Positions 314 to 44,010 of a stretch of 49,550 nt of DNA are shown here, piece by piece. The stretch is from contig JALWMA010000062.1 of assembly GCA_027081015.1 (NCBI GenBank), positions 1-49,550 of the forward strand, read 5' to 3'. The stretch is from Campylobacterales bacterium. GTDB lineage: Bacteria; Campylobacterota; Campylobacteria; Campylobacterales; Hydrogenimonadaceae. The position numbers and the translations under genes are program-made. The notes under the pieces were generated by a model, which was not told the origin of the DNA, did not search any database, and saw only the letters and a program-made list of their open reading frames with translations. Position 1 is the first letter of the stretch. Each line of letters starts with the position of its first letter.

Positions 314-438
314 AACTGATTTTACGCAAATGCGTAAAATCATCTCGAAATCCAAGATTTCGAAGCTTTAGGGGGTTGTAGGGCCGGTCAGGCCCTGCCA
401 AATTGCGGGCTTGGCCCGGAATTTGCGTAACATCAGTT
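314..438 (+). repeat. Dispersed four-hairpin repeat, copy 1 (complete)
   Basis: This 125-bp element is bounded by near-perfect 18-bp inverted repeats, AACTGATTTTACGCAAAT at 314-331 and ATTTGCGTAACATCAGTT at 421-438 (one mismatch). Inside are, in order, a TTACGC/GCGTAA palindrome, a CGAAAT/ATTTCG hairpin, the conserved block AGCTTTAGGGGGTTGTAGGG, an AGGGCC/GGCCCT hairpin and an AAATT-GCGGGC/GCCCGG-AATTT hairpin. Other copies lie at about 24317, 25362, 26557, 38223, 38342 and 43904. It ends 16 bases before the ATG of the next gene, so it could form part of that gene's leader. Confidence 0.85.
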
Positions 439-24238: not shown

Positions 24239-24316
24239 GCGAAGCGGCGGAGATGCTTTTTATGGTATAGTTTTGCAGGAGCCGGCTTCAAGCTCAAACC
24301 GAGGTTGCAGAGAAAG

Positions 24317-24420
24317 CGTAATACTCTCTTGAAATCTGCGATTTCAAAGCTTTAGGGGGTTGTAGGGACTTCAGTCCCTGCCCTTTTGCGGGCTTTGCCC
24401 GCAAAAGGAGTAACATAAAT
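24317..24420 (+). repeat. Dispersed four-hairpin repeat, copy 2 (left end degraded)
   Basis: It shares with copy 1 the TTGAAATC/GATTTCAA hairpin, AAAGCTTTAGGGGGTTGTAG, an AGGGACT/AGTCCCT hairpin and a very strong CTTTTGCGGGC/GCCCGCAAAAG hairpin. These differ in sequence from copy 1 but keep pairing, that is, the changes are compensatory. The right terminal repeat is eroded to GAGTAACATAAAT. It ends 17 bases before the next gene. Confidence 0.8.
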
Positions 24421-25060: not shown

Positions 25061-25360
25061 ATGGAAGTGAAAGAGTGTAAAACCCTTGAAGAGCTGCGCA
25101 AAGAGGTGGACAAGGTCGACGAGAAGATAGTCGAGCTGATAGCGGTTCGCAACGACTACATAAAGCAGGCTGCAAATTTCAAACATACGGTAGATGAGAT
25201 AAAGGCGGACGAGCGGATAGACGATGTTTTGAACCATGTCCGCCACAAGGCGCTCACTCTCGGTGTATCTCCCAACATGGTGGCCGACATCTACAAGCAG
25301 ATGATAGACGCGATGGTCGAGACCGAGATCGCCGAGTTCAGAAACAGGGGATCTTTTTAG
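25061..25360 (+). CDS. aroQ: Chorismate mutase, AroQ class
   Basis: A 99-residue all-helical protein of the AroQ chorismate mutase type, which converts chorismate to prephenate for Phe/Tyr synthesis. Visible features are Leu-Arg-Lys-Glu-Val-Asp-Lys-Val-Asp-Glu-Lys-Ile-Val-Glu-Leu-Ile near the N-terminus (with the catalytic Arg of helix 1), then Val-Arg-Asn and Ile-Lys-Gln-Ala-Ala-Asn-Phe-Lys, then an Arg-x-x-x-Val-Leu helix, and a final helix with Ile-Tyr-Lys-Gln-Met-Ile-Asp-Ala-Met-Val-Glu. Length is typical for a free-standing enzyme; the related isochorismate-pyruvate lyase (PchB) cannot be excluded. GAGAGG precedes the ATG. A reverse copy of the dispersed repeat begins directly after the stop. 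Confidence 0.85.
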   Translation: MEVKECKTLEELRKEVDKVDEKIVELIAVRNDYIKQAANFKHTVDEIKADERIDDVLNHVRHKALTLGVSPNMVADIYKQMIDAMVETEIAEFRNRGSF

Positions 25361-25361
25361 A

Positions 25362-25460
25362 AGCAAACTCCGGGTCGAGCCCGTAATTTGGCAGTGCCGA
25401 GCGGCCCTACAACCCCAAAAACTACGAAATCAAAGATTTCGAGACGATTTTACGCATAAC
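25362..25460 (-). repeat. Dispersed four-hairpin repeat, copy 3 (inverted)
   Basis: Read on the minus strand it shows the GATTTTACGC-like left part near 25445-25455, the CGAAATC/GATTTCG hairpin, a shortened central block GGGGTTGTAGGGCC, and the ATTACGGGC/GACCCGG hairpin. The right terminal repeat is cut off just after the aroQ stop codon, so aroQ and the element abut. Confidence 0.78.
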
Positions 25461-25493
25461 CGGTCCCGGTTTTGAGTTCGGTGCGTTGAGTAG

Positions 25494-25499
25494 TATAAT
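25494..25499 (+). promoter_or_regulatory. -10 promoter of the PhnA-type gene
   Basis: TATAAT 30 bases before the GTG start at 25530, just after repeat copy 3. Confidence 0.5.
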
Positions 25500-25529
25500 A
25501 CGCCGAAAATTAATGTTGAAAGGTTGAAA

Positions 25530-26099
25530 GTGGGCGTTAAAGAGAGCCTTTTGGAGCGAAGCGGCGGGGAGTGTGAACTCTGCGGAAGCAGTGAAGATCT
25601 CGCTGTTCTTGCCGTAGAGCCTTCCGACGGAAGCGCTGAAAAGTCGATACTGGTATGCAGAGTCTGCAAAGAGCAGATCGAAACTCCCGACAAGATCGAT
25701 CCCAACCACTGGCACTGTCTGAACGAGAGTATGTGGAGTACGGAGCCTGCCGTTCAGGTTACGGCATACCGCATTTTGAAGCGTATAGCCTCCGAAGGGT
25801 GGCCGCAGGATCTTCTGGATATGCTCTATCTCGAACCGGAGGTGCAGGCATGGGCGGATGCCGAAGCCGAGGAGAATGAGAGCGGGCGTGAACCCACAAG
25901 AGACAGCAACGGCACCCCGCTCGAAGAGGGTGACAGTGTGACGATTATCAAGGATCTCGATGTAAAAGGGGCCGGTTTTACGGCAAAACGGGGAACGGTC
26001 GTCAAAAATATCCACCTCACCGACAACCCCGAGCAGATAGAGGGGCGTGTGAACGGTGTGAAGATCGTTCTTTTGAGCAGATTCTTGAAAAAGGTGTAG
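25530..26099 (+). CDS. PhnA-domain protein (zinc ribbon plus SH3-like domain)
   Basis: A 189-residue protein of the PhnA/YjdM type. The N-terminal part has two zinc-ribbon knuckles, Cys-Glu-Leu-Cys and Cys-Arg-Val-Cys, and a later Trp-His-Cys-Leu-Asn. The middle is acidic. The C-terminal 70 residues carry the PhnA domain hallmark Thr-Arg-Asp-Ser-Asn-Gly...Gly-Asp-Ser-Val-Thr-Ile-Ile-Lys-Asp-Leu-Asp-Val-Lys-Gly-Ala and Lys-Arg-Gly-Thr-Val-Val-Lys. Despite the name, the family is not needed for phosphonate breakdown; the role is unknown. I favour the GTG at 25530 over the TTG at 25524 because GAAAGG then sits six bases upstream. It is monocistronic. Confidence 0.87.
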   Translation: MGVKESLLERSGGECELCGSSEDLAVLAVEPSDGSAEKSILVCRVCKEQIETPDKIDPNHWHCLNESMWSTEPAVQVTAYRILKRIASEGWPQDLLDMLYLEPEVQAWADAEAEENESGREPTRDSNGTPLEEGDSVTIIKDLDVKGAGFTAKRGTVVKNIHLTDNPEQIEGRVNGVKIVLLSRFLKKV

Positions 26100-26556: not shown

Positions 26557-26678
26557 ACTGATTTTACGCGTAAAGCATAAGATTGTCTAGAAACTTGGAT
26601 TTCGAAGCTTCAGGGGTTATAGGGTCGGCCAGGTCCTGAAAAATTGCAGGATTGCCCGGAATTTGCGTAACATTTGTT
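26557..26678 (+). repeat. Dispersed four-hairpin repeat, copy 4
   Basis: It starts ACTGATTTTACGCG, and then come GGATTTCGAAGCTTCAGGGG, a degraded AGGGTC/GGTCCT hairpin, AATTGCAGGATTGCCCGGAA and the right end ATTTGCGTAACATTTGTT. It lies between the first and second genes of RND operon 1. Confidence 0.8.
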
Positions 26679-38222: not shown

Positions 38223-38341
38223 TCTGATGTTACGCAAATTCCGGGCAGAGCCCGTAATTTGGCAGGGCCTGTGCGGCCCTACAACCCCCTAAAGCTTCGA
38301 AATCAGAGATTTCGAGATGATTTTACGCTTACAGCGTAAAA
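38223..38341 (-). repeat. Dispersed four-hairpin repeat, copy 5a (complete, inverted)
   Basis: The best-preserved copy. On the minus strand: TTTTACGC/GCGTAAAA hairpin, CGAAATC/GATTTCG hairpin, GAAGCTTTAGGGGGTTGTAG, AGGGCC/GGCCCT hairpin, ATTACGGGC/GCCCGGAAT hairpin, and the right end TTTGCGTAACATCAGA. It starts 55 bases upstream of polX. Confidence 0.88.
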
Positions 38342-38410
38342 CTCACGTTACGCAAATTCCGGGCAGAGCCCGTAATTTGGCAGGAGGTGAGCAGCCCTGC
38401 AGCCCCCGCT
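38342..38410 (-). repeat. Dispersed four-hairpin repeat, copy 5b (partial, tandem to 5a)
   Basis: A second copy follows 5a head to tail with an identical ACGTTACGCAAATTCCGGGC-type end (one base different) and GCCCGTAATTTGGCAGG. It stops three bases before the stop codon of the system 2 pump gene, so the left half of the element is missing. Confidence 0.85.
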
Positions 38411-38413
38411 GCT

Positions 38414-41400
38414 CTATTTGTGCTCCTTTTTGTAAAAGAGCAGGTAGAGTGCCGGAAGCACCAGCAGCGTAAGGAGCGTAGAGCTGATTATACCGCCCGT
38501 CACTACCACCGCCAGCGGGTACTGGATTTCGCTTCCCACCCCCGTTACATAAAGAAGCGGCAGAATGCCGAAAAGCGTTGTGAAGGCGGTCATGAGTACG
38601 GGGCGAAGACGCAGCGAAGCGGCATCTTTGAGCAGTGTCTCGAGCTCGACGTCCGGGAATCTCTCCCTAAGCTCGTCTATGAAGCTGACCAAAACGATTC
38701 CGTTTAGAATAGCTATGGCGAATATGGCTATGAAGCCGACGATCGCCGAAACGCTCAGATACTCTCCGCTCATGACGAGCGCTATGATCCCGCCGATGAG
38801 CCCCATAGGAACCCCCAGCAGTATAAGAAGAGATTTCTTGATCGAGTTGAAAGCGGTATAGAGCAGCAGGATGACTATGACGATGGTGATCGGTACGATT
38901 ACCATCAGCTTCTTTGTCGCCTCCTGCATATTTTTGAAATCTCCCGCCCATCTCGTGTAGTACCCTTTCGGAATATCTACCTCTTTGTCGATCTTTAGCT
39001 GCGCCTCTTTGACAAACGACGCGATATCGCGACCCTCCACATCCATAGAGATGACCATGTAGCGGCTGAGGTCTTCGCGTTTTATGAAAGATGGCCCCTG
39101 AACGACCTTGACGTCGCACACTTCGTCCAGACGTACCATTTTGCCGCTCGCGCTTCTGAGCATAACCGCTCCCAGACTCTCTATGTCGTTTTTGGCACCA
39201 TCGATTTTGGGTACGATCCCGAAACGCCTGATACCTTCTATCTTTTCGGTCACAGGCTCTTCGCCTATGCCGTGACGGATAACTCGCATAACCTCGTCCG
39301 CACCGATGCCGTAGCGCGAAAGCGCAAGGAAGTCGGGACGTATCGTCACCTGCGCCTGCCCCAGCTGGGTCTCCACCTCCGTGCGTTCGAGACCCTCCAC
39401 GGTGCCGAGCACCTTTTGAATCTGTGAAGCGATGGAGTCCATCACCTTCTGGTCATCTCCGAATATCTTGACGGCCAGCTCCGCCTTGACCCCTTCGAGC
39501 AGCTCCTCTATACGCATGGCTATAGGCTGTGTAGGTACGAACTGCACATACTCGAAGCGCTCCTGAAGATCTTGTGTCATCCTTTTCGCCAGAGCCGGAA
39601 GGTCTTCGATTCCCGGCTTCAGAGTCAGCAGCACCTCCATATAGTTGGCCTGTGCCGTCTCGCCCTTTTCGCTCCGGCCTATCATGCTGAGCACGCTCGA
39701 AACCTCCGTGCCGTACTCTTTGAGGATGTAGCGTTCCATCTCTTTTGCCGTTTCGATATTCTGCGTCAGTGCTGTACCCGGTATGCCTATGACCCGGTAC
39801 ATTATCGACTCTTCGTTGAGTTCGGGCATGAATTCGCGCCCCTGCTGACTCAGAAGCCACGCCGTCGCGCCGAAGAGGAGTGCGGCAAGCAGGGTTATCG
39901 TTTTTGCATGGTGCAGGGTGAATTTGAGAGCGGGCAGATAGAGCGCTTTTATTCCGCGCATCAGCGGGCTGACGCCGTGCTTTGCCGGTTTGAGCAGCAG
40001 GTAGCTGAGCACCGGAACCAGCAGCATCGCCACGGCCAGAGAGCCGAGCATCACAAAAACGATATCTATGGCCATCGGCGTGTAGAGTTTGCCGGCCAGA
40101 CCACCGAGGCTCAGCAGCGGAATGAAGATCGCCGCTATAATGAGCAGCGCGAAGATGACCGGCTTGGCCACCCCCGCCGTCGCTTCGGCGATAATGTCGA
40201 TCTTCGAAGCTTCGGGTTTGTCGTGCAGAAGCCTGAAGGCGTTCTCGACTACGACGATCGTGCCGTCGACGATCATACCTATCGCTATCGCCAGACCGCT
40301 GAGACTCATCAGGTTGGCGCTTATGCCGTACTCTTTCATGAGCAAAAATGCGATCAGCAGCGAAAGCGGCAGCGAGAGTATGACGATGAAGGCGCTTCTG
40401 AGCTCGAAGAGAAAGAGAAATAGAATGACAGCCACGAGAAGAGCCCCGCTTAAAAGCGCACTCGTCATCGTATTGACCGCCTTGTGCGTTATTTCGGTAC
40501 GGTCGTAGACCGTCTCTATCTCCACCCCGGCCGGAAGCGCGGCGTTTACGAGCGGGATCTTCTCTTTGATCCGTTCGACCACCTTTGCGGCATTGGTTCC
40601 GCTGCGCTGCAGGACCATACCGAACATCGCCTCTTCGCCGTCGATCGATACGGCGCCGAAACGCGGCGCCCTGCCGGCTCTCACATCGGCGATGTCGCCT
40701 ATCGTGACCGCTTTCGCCTCCTTGGCCCGCACAACCGTATTTTTTATATCTTCGAGAGTTCGGTAGAAGCCGCTCCCGCGTATCAGATACTGTTCACGGT
40801 TCATCTCCAGATACTGCCCGCCCGCGCTTCGGTTGGCCTTTTGGAGCGCTTCGATTATCTCGTCGTAGGTTACATCCACTGCCTGAAGCCTTTTGGGGTC
40901 TATCAGCACCTCGTACTGCTTGTCGAAGCCGCCCCATCCGATCACCTCTTCGACACCGTCTACCGATTTGAGCATCGGTGCCACCACATACTCCTGAAGC
41001 TCCCTGAGCCGCGTTAGGCTCTGTTTGCCGGAGTTGTCCTTTATCCGGTACCAGAAGACCTGTCCGAGACCGGTCGTGTTCGGCCCCATGACAGGCTTGC
41101 CCCACCCCTGCGGTATATCTACGCTGTTTAGCCGTTCGGTGACGAGCTGGCGCAGGAAGTAGGTGTCGTATCTCTCTTCGAAGAAGATAGAGACGTACGA
41201 GAGGCCGAAAATGGAGTTCGAGAGTATCATCTTGACGCCCGGAAGCCCCGCCATCGCCGACTCAATCGGGTATGTAATCAGCTTTTCGATATCCTGTGCC
41301 GAGTTACCGGGGCTCTCCGTATATATCACGACCTGTTTTGGTGTGATGTCGGGAAAAGCGTCTACCGGTATCTCCTTGTACGCCTTGTAGCCGAACCCGG

Positions 41401-41467
41401 CTACGGCGACGAAGAGTGCCAGCACCAGGAGCTTGTAACGTATAAGGAGCTTGAAAAATTTTTCCAT
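38414..41467 (-). CDS. Heavy-metal RND efflux pump (CusA/CzcA family), system 2
   Basis: A 1017-residue RND proton/cation antiporter. It begins Glu-Ile-Pro-Val-Asp-Ala-Phe-Pro-Asp-Ile and has the heavy-metal signature Gly-Met-Ile-Val-Asp-Gly-Thr-Ile-Val-Val-Val-Glu-Asn in helix 4. The periplasmic Phe-Met-Pro-Glu-Leu-Asn-Glu-Glu replaces the Met-Asp-Glu-Gly of system 1, and the N-terminal periplasmic loop also differs, so the two pumps are from different subgroups and probably differ in substrate. It is the last gene of a four-gene minus-strand operon (small protein, TolC-type, adaptor, pump). A partial dispersed repeat abuts the stop. Confidence 0.92.
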   Translation of the reverse strand: MEKFFKLLIRYKLLVLALFVAVAGFGYKAYKEIPVDAFPDITPKQVVIYTESPGNSAQDIEKLITYPIESAMAGLPGVKMILSNSIFGLSYVSIFFEERYDTYFLRQLVTERLNSVDIPQGWGKPVMGPNTTGLGQVFWYRIKDNSGKQSLTRLRELQEYVVAPMLKSVDGVEEVIGWGGFDKQYEVLIDPKRLQAVDVTYDEIIEALQKANRSAGGQYLEMNREQYLIRGSGFYRTLEDIKNTVVRAKEAKAVTIGDIADVRAGRAPRFGAVSIDGEEAMFGMVLQRSGTNAAKVVERIKEKIPLVNAALPAGVEIETVYDRTEITHKAVNTMTSALLSGALLVAVILFLFLFELRSAFIVILSLPLSLLIAFLLMKEYGISANLMSLSGLAIAIGMIVDGTIVVVENAFRLLHDKPEASKIDIIAEATAGVAKPVIFALLIIAAIFIPLLSLGGLAGKLYTPMAIDIVFVMLGSLAVAMLLVPVLSYLLLKPAKHGVSPLMRGIKALYLPALKFTLHHAKTITLLAALLFGATAWLLSQQGREFMPELNEESIMYRVIGIPGTALTQNIETAKEMERYILKEYGTEVSSVLSMIGRSEKGETAQANYMEVLLTLKPGIEDLPALAKRMTQDLQERFEYVQFVPTQPIAMRIEELLEGVKAELAVKIFGDDQKVMDSIASQIQKVLGTVEGLERTEVETQLGQAQVTIRPDFLALSRYGIGADEVMRVIRHGIGEEPVTEKIEGIRRFGIVPKIDGAKNDIESLGAVMLRSASGKMVRLDEVCDVKVVQGPSFIKREDLSRYMVISMDVEGRDIASFVKEAQLKIDKEVDIPKGYYTRWAGDFKNMQEATKKLMVIVPITIVIVILLLYTAFNSIKKSLLILLGVPMGLIGGIIALVMSGEYLSVSAIVGFIAIFAIAILNGIVLVSFIDELRERFPDVELETLLKDAASLRLRPVLMTAFTTLFGILPLLYVTGVGSEIQYPLAVVVTGGIISSTLLTLLVLPALYLLFYKKEHK

Positions 41468-41477
41468 TTTACGCCCC

Positions 41478-42659
41478 TTAATGACCGTGTCCGCCGAGCT
41501 CCGACTTGAGTATCAGAGATTTGACGAAATAGACCCCGTCGGCGACATACTCTTCGCCCGGCTCCACACCTTTTACGGCAATGTATCCGCCGAATCTGCC
41601 CACAGGTTCCACCACTCTGACCTCATACGGCTTTTTTTCCGTGTGCTCCGCATGCTCATCATGGCCGGAATTCTCATCGTGCCCGCCATGTTCACCATGT
41701 TCATCGTGTTCATCGTGTTCATCGTGTTCATCGTGCCCGCCATGTTCATCATGTTCGGCATACTCCTCATGCCCCCCTTCGGAAGGGACGAAAACGACCC
41801 ACTCGCCTTCGAACATCGTAAGAGCGGTGCGTTTTACGGCGACATGCTTTTTAAAAGGGGGCATGTTTATCTCCATCTCGGCGAATGCGTTCAGTAGAAG
41901 AGGCCTGCTGTCGCTCTCTATCCAAAATAGCATCTGGGCTCTCTGGGTCTCTTCATCGACCTTCGGCAGCAGGTATAGGTAGCGGCATCTGAAGCTTTTA
42001 CCGTCTATATGCAGCTCCCCCTCCACCTTTTTGGGCATGTTGAGCGCCTCGGCGACGCCTATGTATGCGATGGCGTAGTATCCGCTCGAGCGAACCAGCG
42101 ACACTATCGGTGTCTCGGCCGAGAGGTTGGTGTGAAGCGGAACCAGAAGGCGGCTCACAAGACCGTCGGAGTGGGCCCTTATGATGAGGGTGTCGGTCGG
42201 TTTTTTGAGTGACGACGGGGTCACTCCCAAAGAGGCGAGCTGTGAAGCCAATGCGTTCCTGTCGGCCTCTATCGATGCGAATGCGATCTGTTCACGGTTG
42301 AGATCCTGCTTCGATGCGAGCCCTTTTTCGTAGAGACTCTCGGTAGAAGCGAGCCGCGCCTTTGCGGCTTCGAGCTTTTTGCCCAGGGCGATATAGTCGG
42401 CACTCATTCTCGAGAGTTCGAGCGACTTGACCTCCGCGATCTTGTCACCATCTTTCACCTTTTTACCGGGCTCCACAAAGTAGCGCTCCAGGTGCCCTCC
42501 AAGTCGCGAGACTATCTGCTGGCGCTGATTGCTCAGCTGCACTATTTTGGCGTTTACATGAATCTGTTTGCCGAAAGACTTAAGTTCGGCTTTCTCTATG
42601 ACTACGTCGGAGGCGTGCAGCGACAGGGCCGCAAATAGAGTTATAAAAAGTCTTTTCAT
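41478..42659 (-). CDS. Periplasmic adaptor of RND system 2 with a His/Asp/Glu-rich insert
   Basis: A 393-residue RND adaptor with a signal peptide (about 1-16), lipoyl halves, a helical hairpin (about 95-140) and C-terminal beta domains. Between the beta-barrel and the last domain (about residues 295-341) is a low-complexity stretch of Gly-His-Asp-Glu-His repeats holding 13 histidines, a likely metal-binding loop on the periplasmic side. Four perfect 9-bp DNA repeats encode its core. The gene ends His-Gly-His. Its start overlaps the TolC-type stop by four bases. The adaptor of system 1 lacks such a loop, which suggests that system 2 handles a His-liganded ion such as zinc, copper or nickel; that is inference. 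Confidence 0.87.
   Translation of the reverse strand: MKRLFITLFAALSLHASDVVIEKAELKSFGKQIHVNAKIVQLSNQRQQIVSRLGGHLERYFVEPGKKVKDGDKIAEVKSLELSRMSADYIALGKKLEAAKARLASTESLYEKGLASKQDLNREQIAFASIEADRNALASQLASLGVTPSSLKKPTDTLIIRAHSDGLVSRLLVPLHTNLSAETPIVSLVRSSGYYAIAYIGVAEALNMPKKVEGELHIDGKSFRCRYLYLLPKVDEETQRAQMLFWIESDSRPLLLNAFAEMEINMPPFKKHVAVKRTALTMFEGEWVVFVPSEGGHEEYAEHDEHGGHDEHDEHDEHDEHGEHGGHDENSGHDEHAEHTEKKPYEVRVVEPVGRFGGYIAVKGVEPGEEYVADGVYFVKSLILKSELGGHGH
41700..41735 (-). repeat. Four perfect 9-bp tandem repeats inside the adaptor gene
   Basis: TTCATCGTG is repeated four times without change; on the coding strand this is CACGATGAA, encoding His-Asp-Glu each time. Copy-number change would keep the reading frame and alter the number of His-Asp-Glu units. 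Confidence 0.9.
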
Positions 42660-43903: not shown

Positions 43904-44010
43904 CACTGATGTCACGCAAATTCCTGGCCGAGCCAGTAGTCCGTCAGACGGTGAGCGGCCCTGCAGCCTGCTAAAGGTTCGATATCACAGATCTCGAGAG
44001 CTTTTCACTC
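43904..44010 (-). repeat. Dispersed four-hairpin repeat, copy 6 (inverted, diverged)
   Basis: CACTGATGTCACGCAAATTC at the high-identity end, then CTGGCCGAGCCAG (a changed but still paired hairpin), a CCGTC/GACGG hairpin, GGCCCTGCAGCCTGCTAAAG, and GATATCACAGATCTCGAGA. It sits inside RND operon 2, between its first and second genes. Confidence 0.72.

Follow-up and report, generated by a model that had tools for sequence, protein, structure and literature searches.

Transposons of the ISAba11 group, which belong to the IS701 family, are already known, and share with the element considered here the terminal sequence CTGAYNTTACGCA, 7-bp target duplications and A+T-rich targets. Such insertion sequences (ISs), however, span ~1.1 kb and carry a transposase, whereas the present element is gene-less, with an unrelated, hairpin-rich interior. 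Likeness is also seen to the ERIC/IRU sequences of Enterobacteriaceae, which are ~127 bp long, palindromic, intergenic and found family-wide, yet differ in sequence, hosts and target. The Correia/NEMIS elements of Neisseria are likewise small MITEs with a structured interior that can form RNA hairpins in transcripts, although they generate a TA duplication and have other ends; to our knowledge, no sequence relation links them to the present element. Another IS-derived, non-autonomous bacterial element, MITEAba12 of Moraxellaceae, is set apart by its description, being named for ISAba12 rather than ISAba11 and found in other hosts (PMC6382973). Finally, GTAG-tagged REP sequences, which measure 20-40 bp, are tied to RAYT genes and have been reported in Sulfurovum, are similarly intergenic, with GTAG preceding a hairpin (PMC3733652). 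By contrast, the ends, size and target duplications of the present element are those of a DDE-type transposon.

The element was recognized in a window of 49,550 nucleotides, i.e., the whole stretch of DNA analysed, by a sequence-only reading that described seven copies, lying in both orientations and always between genes. Element copies were present at all seven places:

316-436, + strand: copy E1, full-length, 121 bp, CTGAT...ATCAG (covariance model 123 bits, E 1.4e-25)
24299-24419, + strand: copy E2, covariance-model match, older and divergent, downstream of recQ
~25353-25460, - strand: copy E3, decayed (covariance model 48 bits)
26558-26676, + strand: copy E4 (covariance model 79.8 bits)
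38224-38341, - strand: copy E5, head-to-tail with E6 (covariance model 102 bits)
38342-38410, - strand: copy E6, truncated tandem unit, recognizable only in its stem 3, stem 4 and right-end half
~43904-44010, - strand: copy E7, strongly decayed, seen only as a 74% repeat

The covariance model recovered six of these seven copies, with scores of 46.5 to 123 bits, E7 falling below the cut-off. The left end of E2 lies 18 bases before position 24317, where it had earlier been placed. Both orientations are represented, with E1, E2 and E4 on the + strand and the remaining four on the - strand, and all seven lie clear of confident genes, with E3 alone overlapping a possible ORF (25422-26015), at one of its ends. 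No exact target duplication was found at any of the seven copies, and a search of the window at Rfam gathering scores matched no curated RNA family. Elsewhere in the window, an imperfect 9-base tandem repeat of the TGTTCATCG type (41644-41787), probably corresponding to a His/Asp-rich stretch, lies within an ORF on the - strand (41478-42659) that adjoins an RND efflux gene of the AcrB family (38414-41467).

With copy E1 serving as reference, the following architecture was delineated:

316-331, + strand: left terminal inverted repeat CTGATTTTACGCAAAT, doubling as the 5' arm of hairpin 1
317-342, + strand: hairpin 1, TGATTTTACGC/GCGTAAAATCA, from the predicted fold
345-363, + strand: hairpin 2, TCGAAATC/GATTTCGA, from the fold; in other genera, wholly different letters with pairing kept
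364-383, + strand: conserved block AGCTTTAGGGGGTTGTAGGG, from invariant alignment columns and pattern matches
378-398, + strand: hairpin 3, GTAGGGCC/GGCCCTGC, from alignment, covariation and fold
399-425, + strand: hairpin 4, CAAATT.CGGGC/GCCCG.AATTTG, from the fold and the strongest covariation
421-436, + strand: right terminal inverted repeat ATTTGCGTAACATCAG, from re-reading of the sequence

Both ends of the element correspond to CTGAYNTTACGCA. The 18-bp inverted repeat proposed earlier was confirmed, with the ends AACTGATTTTACGCAAAT and ATTTGCGTAACATCAGTT agreeing at 17 of 18 positions, as were the four hairpins, since the fold of E1 comprises four strong hairpins and, within the conserved block, a weak one. 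That block is mostly unpaired until GTAGGG, where hairpin 3 begins; in other lineages, hairpin 3 reads GGGAC/GTCCC or GGGGAC/GTCCCC. In the window's genus, the element is mostly 121-123 bp long, other lengths being 114-118 or ~142 bp. Overall, lengths range from 114 to 163 bp, into which a transposase would not fit; no coding capacity had been seen in the sequence-only reading, either.

When the whole 2.14-Mb genome from which the window derives was searched with the covariance model, 95 copies were detected, while a BLAST search at the DNA level returned 62 matches. Together with the strong covariation described below, these numbers exclude a chance origin. As such, neither of the two outcomes that would have spoken against the sequence-only reading, namely, a lack of paired changes and the confinement of copies to the window, was found. 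Among 259 genomes of the same order, covariance-model matches were obtained in 49, corresponding to 18 of 73 genera, and in a second sample of 160 genomes from the phylum, 11 yielded matches, every one in Campylobacterales. When one genome from each of 84,980 species was scanned with a 20-base pattern taken from the conserved block, at least 116 stretches matched; among the 80 records listed, 79 were named as Campylobacterota and the remaining one was titled only 'bacterium'. The listed matches include Sulfurimonas, Sulfuricurvum, Sulfurovum, Sulfurospirillum, Hydrogenimonas and Helicobacteraceae, and the Hydrogenimonas MAG S141_77 contains the same element subtype as the window (L098, L126), such that the window probably belongs to the genus Hydrogenimonas. 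No copies were found in a search for the element on plasmids or phages, and a search of the open-licence literature revealed no MITE family described from either Campylobacterota or the ISAba11 group.

Target duplications were sought by comparing the 7 bases to the left with the 7 bases to the right of 53 copies, selected solely for well-formed ends. Exact 7-bp duplications were found in 19 of the 53, as compared to 0.19 expected from swapped flanks. As this set includes some tandem or decayed copies, the true rate of duplication in fresh insertions is higher. Other lengths were seen in at most one copy (5, 6, 9 and 10 bp) or in three (8 bp). The consensus of the duplicated target leans to TTANTAA, and copies with exact duplications in the window's own genome include L003 (ATAGTAA) and L021 (TTGCTTA). 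The site of the L021 insertion is occupied in the own genome (G000) and in its nearest sister (G005), while in five sister species (G001, G010, G013, G016 and G017), the empty site aligns contiguously.

An autonomous partner with identical ends, as had been proposed to be sought, was found in a relative:

G192:C377:1362-2463 (L256:1169-2221): intact partner IS, 1,102 bp, with paired ends, in a Campylobacterales genome

In the search for partners, the end CTGAYSTTACGCAC was detected in 35 of 259 genomes, as compared to two genomes containing a single instance each of a reversed control pattern. Those CTGAYSTTACGCAC matches that were opened proved to be mostly MITEs, belonging either to the present family or to a second, ~265-bp kind that shares its ends. 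Members of this second kind (~260-325 bp) combine CTGAYSTTACGCAC ends with an unrelated hairpin-rich interior bearing the motifs CAAGGCGGA and GACTTCGTT and occur in several families of the order (L207, L208, L210, L211, L212, L215 and L216, in G002, G049, G012 and G043). The partner IS contains just one long ORF, whose 350-aa product matches the IS701 family (NCBIfam NF049921; 330 bits, cut-off 250), as well as Pfam DDE_5 and DDE_Tnp_1. Inspection of the G192 flanks revealed no clean target duplication, and no resemblance was visible between the interiors of the MITE and the partner IS.

The best plasmid relatives of the partner transposase are 46-55% identical, with one being annotated as 'group ISAba11 transposase'. 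ISAba11-group plasmid elements from Acinetobacter, Polaromonas and others carry these ends, reading as CTGATGTTACGCAG, CTGACCTTACGCAG or CTGAAGTTACGCA. All six plasmid elements that were opened are bounded on both sides by CTGATGTTACGCA, CTGACCTTACGCA or CTGAAGTTACGCA, and three of the six show exact 7-bp duplications (TATTTAA, TTACTAA and TTATTTA). On an Acinetobacter schindleri plasmid (NZ_CP044464.1; L311), an ISAba11-group element flanked by a perfect 7-bp duplication adjoins an aph(3')-VI resistance gene. Rieck et al. (2012), as cited in PMC7326120, place ISAba11 in the IS701 family. Because members of that family are listed with 4-bp duplications (PMC2266710), the 7 bp seen here imply that the ISAba11 group departs from the family norm. 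Decayed pieces of the transposase were also found immediately internal to unpaired copies of the end in G028, G035, G104, G220, G233 and G001, the last of which belongs to the window's own genus.

Other candidate partners were rejected. An IS4/ISPepr1 partner had been suggested by its 7-8-bp duplications and A+T-rich targets, yet no matching end pairs were found at the PF01609 transposase loci retrieved from 120 genomes. The ends lying 1.86 kb apart at G050:C70 enclose an apparent glycosyltransferase and glycosyl hydrolase and no transposase, while lone ends in G021, G050 and G049 have no adjoining transposase. No relatives of the partner transposase were confirmed in viral contigs. In the window's own genome, searches detected neither a partner-type transposase nor PF01609 proteins, such that the element is non-autonomous there and may no longer be mobile. 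A helper transposase in the same genome is usual for a MITE, yet not strictly required.

The interior of the element was considered by assessing covariation in a MAFFT alignment of 54 copies, using a structure obtained with RNAalifold. In agreement with the earlier claim that stems change in sequence but stay paired, 97.8% of cells were paired, a share favored by the structure having been derived from the same alignment, as compared to 34.8-46.3% in slid-partner controls, which retain the kinship of the copies. The 135 double-sided changes observed compare with 48 in shuffles and were reached in none of 500 shuffles, figures inflated by that same kinship. Stem 4 presented double changes at all five outer pairs, with 111 double-changed cells and a single unpaired cell over four of these, while stem 2 reads CGAAATC/GATTTCG, CCCATATC/GATATGGG or CCCGCATC/GATGCGGG, depending on lineage, and is paired in each case. 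RNA fold energies gave a mean z of -6.3 relative to dinucleotide shuffles, and the AGCTTTAGGGGG strand folded more stably in 64 of 70 copies. Stem 4 also contains 53 cells of the G-U type as opposed to 7 of the A-C type. When mostly-G-U pairs were excluded, G-U cells still outnumbered A-C cells, by 122 to 52 in a model-fitted, and hence structure-leaning, alignment and by 23 to 8 in a manual count from the pair table. This strand-asymmetric excess, seen in copies that are related, suggests that selection acts on a folded single-stranded form, the simplest candidate being RNA. Given the compensatory changes, the strand-biased G-U pairs and the strand bias in stability, it is plausible that the element doubles as an mRNA structure, as had been proposed, and the folded interior may have a cellular function.

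The paired changes could instead be mutational in origin, with template switching in hairpins (quasi-palindrome correction) copying one arm onto the other. Such templated correction would also give the replacement of whole stems seen between genera. However, conservation also extends to the mostly unpaired block AGCTTTAGGGGGTTGTAGGG, and a strand-blind process predicts neither the excess of G-U over A-C on one strand nor the better folding of that strand in most copies, rendering this explanation somewhat unlikely.

A role fixed by position is less probable still. Here, the element would be a domesticated RNA with a cis-regulatory or transcription-terminating role, selected by the host at its sites, its mobility being a thing of the past. 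Such a role would be in keeping with the location of the sites in other Campylobacterota genera, 101 of 105 of which fall outside predicted ORFs (background, 10%), and with E2 being retained at the orthologous position in a relative (G010; L051). Nonetheless, neighboring genes are convergent, tandem or divergent alike and the orientation of the element is mixed. Relative to tandem neighbors, the ratio of same to opposite sense was 16 to 5 when the own genome was counted with its relatives and 21 to 34 elsewhere, an inconsistency that makes one fixed cis-regulatory role unlikely. Moreover, clean target duplications and the empty site indicate movement, and on the conserved-block strand of the window copy, nothing resembling a terminator hairpin followed by a T run is seen. 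Such domestication is thus improbable.

Least likely by far, and abandoned here along with the REP-like part of the sequence-only reading, is a REP/BIME-type element moved by a RAYT (a Y1 tyrosine enzyme) with the GTAG before hairpin 3 as recognition tag, since although most aligned lineages present GTAG, and some a GTGCAG/GCAG-type sequence, followed by a hairpin, and many relatives encode Y1 proteins of ~260 aa, a survey of 60 relatives with the Y1_Tnp profile detected no Y1 protein in the own genome despite its 95 copies, the Y1 genes inspected have no copy within ~2 kb, and 7-bp target duplications with terminal inverted repeats are not products of Y1 enzymes, pointing instead to a DDE enzyme. 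The Y1 protein noted in this survey (L185-L205) is conserved, of ~260 aa, mostly single-copy and found in many Campylobacterales, with a Y1 transposase domain, a C-terminal helix-turn-helix-like tail and no element repeats nearby.

The window's own genome also holds head-to-tail arrays with a unit of ~120 bp, in which a junction of the AACATGRATGGNTTACGC type replaces the outer ends:

G000:C40:5281-5651, C41:19359-19718 and C125:2614-2858, also C30, C7 and C20: arrays of 2-3 units

In two cases, paired contigs whose flanks match carry different numbers of units, namely, one versus three and one versus two (L007 versus L025, L016 versus L019), indicating that units multiply in place. These contigs could represent paralogous loci or variants from different strains in the metagenome assembly.

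Taken together, the repeat is very probably a non-autonomous MITE that relies for its movement on a trans-acting DDE transposase from the ISAba11 group (IS701 family), with an interior that would be kept as a single-stranded structure. Its MITE-like character, already surmised from the window, is borne out by the terminal inverted repeats, target duplications and empty sites that were observed directly, as were the ends shared with an intact, autonomous IS in the order and the decayed remnants of such ISs. The ISAba11-group transposase would thus have mobilized the element, recognizing CTGAYNTTACGCA at both ends and inserting it into A+T-rich intergenic TTANTAA sequences, with 7 bp being duplicated; head-to-tail multiplication in place would then have generated the tandem arrays. 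The interior would be kept in a folded, single-stranded form, most likely as RNA from the AGCTTTAGGGGG strand, staying foldable because transcripts read through it, and could render intergenic insertions tolerable or useful through 3'-end protection, processing or attenuation. More tentatively, the interior could be a selected structured RNA riding on ISAba11-type ends, conserved across Campylobacterota genera as a portable intergenic module for mRNA processing or stability.

While ISAba11-group/IS701 transposons are already known, what is new is an abundant MITE, with 95 matches in one genome and a presence in at least 18 genera of the order, for which the likely enzyme, ends and target duplication are provided, and what is distinctive is its unusually long-conserved structured interior, the shape of which persists despite altered letters in many genera of bacteria from vents and sediments. 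Should the interior be a selected structured RNA, then a transposon family and an RNA family would be one and the same. With ends owned by the transposase and an interior that covaries, the element offers a clean natural experiment on why RNA-like hairpins are so common in small bacterial transposons.
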